Positions 379-2,226 of a stretch of 48,092 bases of DNA are shown here, in pieces. The notes under the pieces are model-generated. The model had not been told where the DNA came from. It worked only from the letters and a program-made list of their open reading frames with translations, and did no database searches. Position numbers and translations under genes: made by a program. Within the stretch, counting starts at the first letter, position 1; every line of letters begins with the position of its first letter. The stretch lies in NCBI GenBank assembly GCA_020058285.1, contig JAGVEL010000009.1:1-48092 (forward strand), read 5' to 3'. Source of the DNA: Candidatus Omnitrophota bacterium (GTDB taxonomy: Bacteria > Omnitrophota > Gorgyraeia > JAHJTE01).

Positions 379-454
379 GTAACCTTGTAAGTAAACAGAA
401 TTTCGGGTATACTTTAAGAAGCCGATAAAGGTAAACCTAGAGAAATCTAGGGAC

Positions 455-496
455 CCAGGCAAAGTTTTAAGTGTTTTTGTCTTAAACTTCGTCTGG
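455..496. repeat. palindromic element copy 1 (inverted orientation), inside riboswitch
   Basis: CCAG...CTGG hairpin with AAGTTTTAAG/CTTAAACTT arms; reverse complement aligns with 497-537. Confidence 0.55.
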
Positions 497-537
497 CCCG
501 GCGAAGTCAAACACGATAAGTATTTTACGAAGCCGGG
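497..537. repeat. 41-bp palindromic element copy 2, inside riboswitch
   Basis: CCCGGCGAAGTCAAACACGATAAGTATTTTACGAAGCCGGG; aligns without gaps to 724-764. Confidence 0.7.
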
Positions 538-659
538 GCAAAGCCGCAAACCTGTAGCTGCGAGGCCCGAAATCCCGATTTTATCGGGAGAAGGCATGCA
601 GTATGGTGGTTGGGCTGCCGAATGGCGAAACGCTCGCCTTTATCGGCTTTCTTATTTAG

Positions 660-687
660 ACGCTCAAGATGCTTTGAGCGTTTTTTT
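660..687 (+). terminator. Rho-independent terminator
   Basis: ACGCTCAA-GATGCT-TTGAGCGT stem-loop followed by a T-tract. Confidence 0.88.
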
Positions 688-723
688 ATTCGCCCAAAAC
701 ATCTAAATTCTGTCAGCGAATAA

Positions 724-764
724 CCCGCCGAAGCTAAACGCGAAAGCAATTTAGCGAAGGCGGG
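724..764. repeat. 41-bp palindromic element copy 3
   Basis: CCCGCCGAAGCTAAACGCGAAAGCAATTTAGCGAAGGCGGG; same nested-stem layout as 497-537. Confidence 0.7.
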
Positions 765-831
765 TAATTCAGTGGTTAATTTTCAATTGTATATTGCCAA
801 GATTAATTACAGATGGTAGAATGACTTCACT

Positions 832-2226
832 ATGAGCAAATACGATGTGGCAATAATTGGTTCAGGTCCAGCAGGTTATGTTGCCGGCATAAGACTAAGC
901 CAATTAGGTAAAACTGTTTGCGTCCTGGAGACGTCCCAAGAGCGCTTAGGCGGCGTTTGCCTTAACGAAGGCTGCATTCCTACCAAATCTTTAATCAATA
1001 CTGCTGAGATTGTTGATATTGCGAAAGCTTCTGGAAAATCAGGCCTTGATTTAGAACTGAAATCCCTGGATTTTAATAAAATGGTTGCTGCTGCCCTTGG
1101 AAATAGTGCTAAGTTGCGTAGCGGTATAAGCTTTTTATTCAAAAAAAATAAAATTGACCTGATTATTGGTCAGGCTAGTTTTAAATCAGCAAAAACCTTA
1201 AATGTCATTAGCGACGGAAAGAATCAGGAGATTTGCGCTGACTATTTTTTAATTGCAACTGGTTCGCGGCCTAAAGTATTAACTGGTTTAGAGCCGGATG
1301 GAAAGAGGGTTCTAATCAGCCCGGATATTTTTAAGCTCAAAATTCTACCTAAAAATATACTTATAATCGGCGCTGGCGCTATTGGCGTTGAATTTGGCTG
1401 GTTATTTCAGACATTAGGCTCAAAAGTTACGCTTGTAGAAGTTACTAATCAAGTTTTGCCACTTGAAGATGCTGATATTGCTTTAGAAATTACTAAGTAC
1501 CTTAAAAAAAGAGGCGTGCAGATTTATACAGAAAGCAAAGTTGCTAAACTTGAGAAAAATGAAGATATCTGTAAGGTAGAAATAAAAACCGCAAATTCAG
1601 ATATAAAAAGAGAATTTGATTATTGTTTACTTTGTGTTGGACGAAGCGCTAATATAGAGAATCTTGGCTTAGAGCAACTTGGCGTTGAAATGGATAAGGG
1701 TTTTATTAAGGTTAATTCTCATATGCAGACAAGCCAGTCTCATATTTATGCAGCTGGGGATTGTATTAATTCACCAATGCTCGCCCATGTTGCTTCAGCT
1801 GAAGGCATAGTCGCGGCAGAGGCAATTTGCGGTAAAAATCCCCAAGCCTTGAATTATGATAATATACCTTCTGCGGTTTATTCAGCGTTTCAAGTCGGAA
1901 GAGTAGGCTTGACTGAAAAGGCAGCCAGGGAAAAGGGATTAGATATAGCTATTAGTAAGCATTTCTTCAAAGCCTGCGGCAAAGCAGTGCTTTTAGGTAA
2001 AGACGAAGGATTTGTTAAGATTATTGCAGAGAGAAATATTGGCCAGATTATCGGCGTTCATATTGTCGGGCCTGAAGCAAGTGAATTAATCCACGAGTTT
2101 GTGATTGCCAAGAACAATAATTTAAAAATTCAGGATATTGCTAACACAATTCATTCCCACCCAACACTTTCCGAAATAGCTGTTGATGCAGCAAAAGCAG
2201 TATTTGATAAACCGATTCATGGATAA
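832..2226 (+). CDS. lpdA: dihydrolipoyl dehydrogenase
   Basis: FAD GxGxxG N-terminus, GGVCLNEGCIPTKSL redox-active disulfide, C-terminal HSHPTLSE. Confidence 0.95.
   Translation: MSKYDVAIIGSGPAGYVAGIRLSQLGKTVCVLETSQERLGGVCLNEGCIPTKSLINTAEIVDIAKASGKSGLDLELKSLDFNKMVAAALGNSAKLRSGISFLFKKNKIDLIIGQASFKSAKTLNVISDGKNQEICADYFLIATGSRPKVLTGLEPDGKRVLISPDIFKLKILPKNILIIGAGAIGVEFGWLFQTLGSKVTLVEVTNQVLPLEDADIALEITKYLKKRGVQIYTESKVAKLEKNEDICKVEIKTANSDIKREFDYCLLCVGRSANIENLGLEQLGVEMDKGFIKVNSHMQTSQSHIYAAGDCINSPMLAHVASAEGIVAAEAICGKNPQALNYDNIPSAVYSAFQVGRVGLTEKAAREKGLDIAISKHFFKACGKAVLLGKDEGFVKIIAERNIGQIIGVHIVGPEASELIHEFVIAKNNNLKIQDIANTIHSHPTLSEIAVDAAKAVFDKPIHG

Follow-up and report, generated by a model that had tools for sequence, protein, structure and literature searches.

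We analysed a 48,092-nt stretch of DNA (hereafter, the window) from a Candidatus Omnitrophota bacterium, which represents one entire contig (C43) of a 1.24 Mb genome in 70 contigs. A class I c-di-GMP (GEMM-I) aptamer occupies positions 421–623 near its beginning, between a small open reading frame (ORF) ending at 378 and lpdA (832–2226); lpdA is followed by genes for a lipoyl synthase (Radical_SAM and LIAS_N) and then a nitroreductase (Pfam Nitroreductase). The features of the locus are detailed in Table 1. The small ORF (193–378) is cysteine-rich, with CxxC pairs, had no Pfam match, and also adjoins the RNA in G001, a related genome described below.

Table 1 Features of the aptamer locus in the window, with the basis of each assignment
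Feature	Position	Strand	Basis
Promoter-like TTGTAA-17-TATACT; start expected at ~420, just 5' of the aptamer	385..413	+	Scan; consensus match
5' strand GCCGATAAAGG, P1 and J1/2; G430 = G20, ligand contact	421..431	+	Sequence; PMC3764141 numbering
Upper stem of P2 (6 bp), capped by the GAAA tetraloop at 442-445	436..451	+	Rfam alignment; fold
GAC after P2; C454 = C44	452..454	+	Sequence; C44 role from PMC3764141
First inserted hairpin (HP1)	455..496	+	Fold; shuffle test; slot of the orthologue differs in sequence
Second inserted hairpin (HP2), directly abutting HP1 and 538	497..537	+	Fold; shuffles; orthologue; insert collection
GCAAAGCC; G538 = G45, pairs with U432 = position 22; A540 = A47, stacks between ligand guanines; A542 = A49	538..545	+	Sequence; PMC3764141 numbering
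P3 and J3/1, ending GGGCTGCC; C618 = likely C92 ligand contact	546..619	+	Rfam alignment; excised-form profile
CCTTTATCGGC (637-647), complementary to 421-431, then U-rich run	637..656	+	Alternative pairing, window and relatives
Intrinsic-terminator-like hairpin with U tract	658..690	+	Scan
Third copy of the HP2 palindrome, outside the aptamer	724..764	+	33/42 identical to 497-537
Promoter-like TTGCCA-17-TAGAAT (extended -10) of the next gene	794..822	+	Scan; orthologue
lpdA, dihydrolipoamide dehydrogenase-type flavoprotein	832..2226	+	Pfam Pyr_redox_2 / Pyr_redox_dim

The aptamer upstream of lpdA and its 83-nt insert

The GEMM-I consensus contains GGGACGCAAAGCC as a contiguous element, as the initial annotation noted, and this is indeed the majority form in related genomes. 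In the window the element is split by an 83-nt extension: position 454 is the last of GGGAC and position 538 the first of GCAAAGCC, the very coordinates given in that annotation. The intervening bases fold into two adjacent hairpins that leave no base unassigned. Each hairpin has six uninterrupted pairs counted from the insert ends, a property matched by 0.14% of 5000 dinucleotide shuffles, so that the description of two adjoining hairpins with nothing left over held under both folding and the shuffle control.

We aligned the flanking sequence to the numbering of the Vc2 aptamer (PMC3764141), in which C44 makes an inter-helix pair with G83 of P3, and G45 pairs with position 22 to form the floor of the ligand pocket. 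The insert lies between the equivalents of C44 and G45. The ligand-contact residues G20, A47, and C92 are present as G430, A540, and C618, and P2 carries its GAAA tetraloop, the equivalent of C44, and the 22–45 pair as U432–G538. P3 and J3/1 are covered both by the profile match of the excised form, which extends to position 87, and by an RF03167 alignment extending to 623; the P3 tetraloop receptor was recognised by eye only.

No match in the window attained an Rfam gathering score. The c-di-GMP-I-GGC family (RF03167) aligned to 421–623 with a large insert and 24.4 bits against a gathering score of 59, and RF01051 matched as two halves, 420–464 and 521–622 (24.9 and 22.8 bits). Comparison with the excised form attributes these low scores to the insert. 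Against a profile built from canonical GEMM-I aptamers, the intact window gave two partial matches (15.1 and 10.8 bits), while the insert-free window scored 40.6 bits across positions 5–87; chance matches in coding regions reach 16–24 bits with this profile, and around the anchor only. Since the deleted form scores as GEMM-I and its contact residues are canonical, the flanks constitute a complete aptamer, in line with the initial impression that they are well conserved.

The top-scoring Rfam family for the window and for several relatives is RF03167, the GGC variant, and the RNA could accordingly be a variant that binds another ligand and is no longer a c-di-GMP aptamer. We take this variant to be defined by a G at position 47, where the family consensus is printed with G; the window has A540 there, within GCAAAG, and on this basis we reject a c-di-GMP-I-GGC identity. 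G20 and the C92 region are canonical as well. The genome encodes seven GGDEF proteins and four ordinary GEMM-I aptamers above the cut-off, indicating that c-di-GMP signalling exists in this organism, and c-di-GMP-type target genes follow the aptamer in relatives. We thus regard a change of ligand as very unlikely and infer that the two-hairpin RNA would bind c-di-GMP.

Two-hairpin inserts across the Omnitrophota

The first comparable cases came from a pattern search of 198 relatives. At spacings of 0–30 nt the site was empty about 110 times and held 1–2 nt seven times, and the four longer spacings found besides the window were all two-hairpin inserts containing a chance GCAAAG. In a search of 392 genomes (insert lengths of 25–55 nt), 21 of 21 inserts of at least 33 nt were double hairpins, the shortest of which (33 nt) consists of GGGCAGTAAATGCCC followed by TTCTGAGAACAATCAGAA. 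Neither the 198 relatives nor the 392-genome search yielded a single-hairpin insert.

A scan of one genome per species, covering 85,488 species, returned 59 loci. Almost all of its two-hairpin loci belong to Omnitrophota; the records labelled otherwise are L067 (Elusimicrobia) and L094 ('PVC group'), both placed by record label only. According to class and phylum searches, the two-hairpin form occurs in at least 15 family groups of two classes of Omnitrophota. The genomes surveyed are mostly metagenome-assembled. Because the search patterns fixed GGYAAAC, GNRA, GGAC, and GCAAAG, these letters are conserved partly by construction; the patterns placed no constraint on P3 or the C92 region. Altogether we collected 54 distinct inserts of 33–83 nt (median 59), nearly all from Omnitrophota. 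Apparent chance matches in coding regions (L082, L098, L108, and L112) were excluded from the collection, and L051, L054, and L055 are mere pattern matches.

By an automatic rule, 52 of the 54 inserts form two linker-free hairpins with at least three end-anchored pairs per stem; in the remaining two, L123 and the C9 copy listed under L008, terminal mismatches break the rule, but inspection by eye shows the same plan. Across the 52 inserts, the first three pairs of each hairpin show five to six of the six standard pair types per position, standard pairing at these positions being guaranteed by the rule itself. The boundary between the hairpins was set in this tally to maximise pairing, and the shuffle control was handled likewise. 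Both stems have at least 4 bp in 35 of 44 inserts, compared with shuffle means of 1.1–2.4 (real and shuffled sequences treated alike), and three of the nine inserts falling short are chance matches in coding regions. HP2 is closed by a C-G pair in 38 of the 52. The arms range from 12 to 64 nt and do not align between species, and we saw no conserved sequence or loop within them.

The two-hairpin extension is thus common to 54 distinct sequences, nearly all from Omnitrophota, which makes it a variant of the GEMM-I family. Like Vc2 of Vibrio cholerae and other c-di-GMP-I aptamers (RF01051), these RNAs have P1, P2, and P3, G20, A47, the C92 region, C44, the GNRA loop, and GCAAAGCC, and the relatives of the window RNA likewise precede c-di-GMP-type genes; unlike RF01051, the Omnitrophota variant adds 33–83 nt as two linker-free hairpins at C44/G45. 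It is a lineage-specific structural variant, a family member by its residues and layout and new by its architecture. That so many Omnitrophota species share back-to-back hairpins at this spot suggests a structural form of the aptamer that is conserved and has so far gone undescribed. In the literature we searched, mostly outside subscription journals, we found no two-hairpin GEMM-I extension, although a prior description is possible, nor any work linking Omnitrophota with riboswitches. The majority of the two-hairpin loci searched fall under Rfam's gathering score, and the c-di-GMP regulons of this large and poorly studied phylum are therefore probably under-annotated.

Several other arrangements were encountered in these searches. 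Matches in Bipolaricaulota, Clostridia, and Armatimonadetes were set aside: these proved to be canonical aptamers arranged in tandem or nested, or other settings where the 'insert' starts with GCAAAGC. Nested c-di-GMP-I aptamers, mostly in Bipolaricaulota/Acetothermia records, were seen at L069, L071, L072, L083, L089, L096, L105, L106, L113, and L118; a second complete GEMM-I apparently resides inside P3 of the first, and in L071 the outer P1 strands CATCTA and TAGATG enclose both. Five loci (L053, on C9 of the window's own genome, L049, L048, L067, and L103) have a second linker-free hairpin pair 5' of GGCAAAC, between J1/2 and P2, giving two double-hairpin extensions; the automatic test for such pairs has a random background of 176/2000, and these are the clearest five. 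In the genome of L048, a canonical GEMM-I aptamer (2844–2939) is found about 650 nt 3' of the two-hairpin one.

Origin of the inserted hairpins and the proposed junction

The initial annotation considered the two palindromes to be an interruption of the aptamer in this genome, possibly leaving a dead switch. An orthologous leader speaks to this directly. In G001, a genome of the same family and another genus, the small ORF, the aptamer, and lpdA occur in the same order (lpdA is 63% identical), and at the identical point of the aptamer we found AUCUUUCAGGGAUUAUUUCCUUGAGGGAU followed by CCUGAGCAAUUCGUUCAGG, which form two perfect hairpins, 29 and 19 nt long, set back to back and unrelated in sequence to those of the window. 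The neighbouring 22–45 pair, U-G in the window, is U-A in G001. With the extension kept in unrelated sequence, its architecture shared by dozens of other leaders, and the flanks intact, neither an event confined to this genome nor a dead switch agrees with the data. The annotation named a shared extension in orthologues as evidence against its reading, and such a shared extension is what we observed; the other refuting outcome it named, a deleted form that no longer scores as GEMM-I, did not occur. The alternative raised in the same annotation, a tolerated or tuned stem-stack insertion, does fit the architecture seen across Omnitrophota leaders.

The annotation further suggested that the two hairpins are a head-to-head pair of one element. 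This resemblance is real yet modest: the reverse complement of 455–496 and 497–537 are identical at 25 of 42 positions (p=0.0005 against shuffled hairpins). HP2 is closer to the palindrome at 724–764 than to the reverse complement of HP1 (see Table 1), and HP1 resembles that palindrome in reverse; the palindrome at 724–764 has symmetrical CGAAG/CGAAG internal loops. Half-sites of the repeat match 10 times in the genome, compared with none for a control pattern. Such a pattern recalls REP/REPIN elements, which are paired palindromes of ~40 nt that occur in many near-identical copies together with a RAYT (Y1) transposase, and a recent insertion of paired, REP-like mobile repeats, probably killing the aptamer, would explain it. 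The window shares with these elements the paired palindromes of ~40 nt, but no Y1_Tnp (REP-associated, RAYT) match was found in the genome, and exact half-sites number only four in 1.24 Mb, three of them within the window leader; around the six one-mismatch half-sites and the exact half-site on C59 there was no comparable hairpin. The orthologue and dozens of other species fill the slot with unrelated hairpins, and the aptamer flanks are undamaged. A recent insertion of this kind is consequently very improbable, and the orthologue's filling, the few copies, and the lack of a Y1 transposase refute a mobile-element origin of the architecture as such. As a source of the arm sequence in this one genome, mobile repeats are possible. 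The recurrence of an HP-related palindrome at 724–764 suggests that the slot is old and conserved while its present filling may be local, derived from the nearby palindrome. What stands of the head-to-head claim is hence the kinship of the sequences; the slot that holds them is conserved.

Our preferred reading, to which we assign a probability of roughly 85%, is that a class I c-di-GMP aptamer was inherited here with an extended architecture, 455–537 being that extension rather than an invading element. Two linker-free hairpins between the C44 and G45 equivalents would turn P2 into a four-way junction, whose arms would be the 2-bp base of P2, HP1, HP2, and the upper stem of P2 with its GNRA loop. 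HP1 and HP2 may stack on each other, with both parts of P2 remaining in line, and we infer that this stacking would preserve the ligand pocket, the C44–G83 pair, and the docking of the tetraloop into its receptor. A single hairpin would instead give a three-way junction and a kink. Stacking that leaves the canonical aptamer undisturbed would explain why two hairpins are found, or none.

Should this model be correct, a well-studied ligand-binding RNA core naturally accepts a whole four-way junction beside its pocket, and a simple rule, under which stacked hairpins come as a pair or not at all, predicts a specific fold and marks an insertion point for the engineering of c-di-GMP sensors. The Mn2+-responsive yybP-ykoY riboswitch (PMC6754395) is a natural four-way-junction RNA whose helices likewise meet so as to bring two arms side by side. 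The hairpin ribozyme is another such RNA. Neither is related in sequence to ours, and in the Omnitrophota RNAs, in contrast, the junction would be an optional extra on an aptamer that also functions in its absence.

The arms could alternatively be a second functional module, such as a protein site, a site for a second ligand, or a control of folding rate, with a tuning or gating effect on the aptamer that goes beyond a stack that is simply tolerated. Across families the architecture persists despite turnover in sequence, always as two hairpins, and the C-G closure of HP2 in 38 of 52 inserts would also agree with a selected module. However, the range of arm lengths and the absence of a conserved arm sequence or loop speak against a specific binding site. 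Moreover, the extension is dispensable: ordinary GEMM-I aptamers coexist with it in the same genome, and one GH1 gene family lies 3' of an empty-site aptamer (L172) as well as of two-hairpin aptamers (L080, L084, and L087), so that a single gene family is preceded by aptamers with and without it. We consider a second module doubtful, though far from negligible. Of fairly low probability, and speculative, is a wider version of the inherited extension, according to which the Omnitrophota have evolved a class of aptamers where a selected linker-free four-way junction next to the ligand pocket would govern how fast the RNA folds or how it responds to ligand. Some members, including that of the window, would then be free-standing c-di-GMP-sensing transcripts with a promoter and terminator of their own, and not leaders of the gene that follows.

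Target genes, proposed switching and putative transcript boundaries

In relatives, the genes 3' of two-hairpin members include those for GspE/PilB with MshEN, a PilT-like T2SSE ATPase, secretin, and prepilins, and further a response regulator, a lytic transglycolase, LapG-like transglutaminase-fold proteins, and GH1 glycosidases. Those of the type IV pilus, secretin, GspE/MshEN, and LapG-like groups are usual c-di-GMP targets.

We identified a potential switching element in the leader. The 5' strand of the aptamer, GCCGATAAAGG (421–431), is complementary to CCTTTATCGGC (637–647) in the window, and the same holds in the orthologue; the alternative helix can also be drawn in leaders L080, L084, L087, L094, L172, and L192, and a U-rich run follows it in most of the window, orthologue, and relatives. 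Formation of this helix would remove G20 and G21 from the aptamer. As G20 would thereby be excluded from the pocket, ligand binding is expected to favour read-through: by protecting 421–431 from pairing with 637–647 ahead of the U tract, the ligand would make the RNA an ON switch.

Both the window RNA and its orthologue are framed by a promoter-like site and a terminator. In G001, TTGAAT-17-TATACT takes the place of 385–413, such that the TATACT box and the 17-nt spacing are conserved, and a different terminator takes the place of 658–690. The promoter-like boxes of lpdA, TTGCCA-17-TAGAAT, are identical and equally spaced in the two genomes; lpdA would thus appear to possess a separate promoter, placed after a terminator. 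A candidate promoter and terminator of its own, together with the separate promoter-like site of lpdA, tentatively suggest that the window RNA may be transcribed on its own and not as the leader of lpdA, a reading based on matches to promoter and terminator consensus that are shared by just two species. A similar promoter/terminator frame surrounds L172.

The genome of the window (G000) carries a second two-hairpin GEMM-I RNA at C9:16119–16342 (L008, L053), with an orthologue in G001 at C1:191280 (L049). No sizeable ORF lies shortly 3' of it on the same strand, and it is possibly another free-standing RNA.
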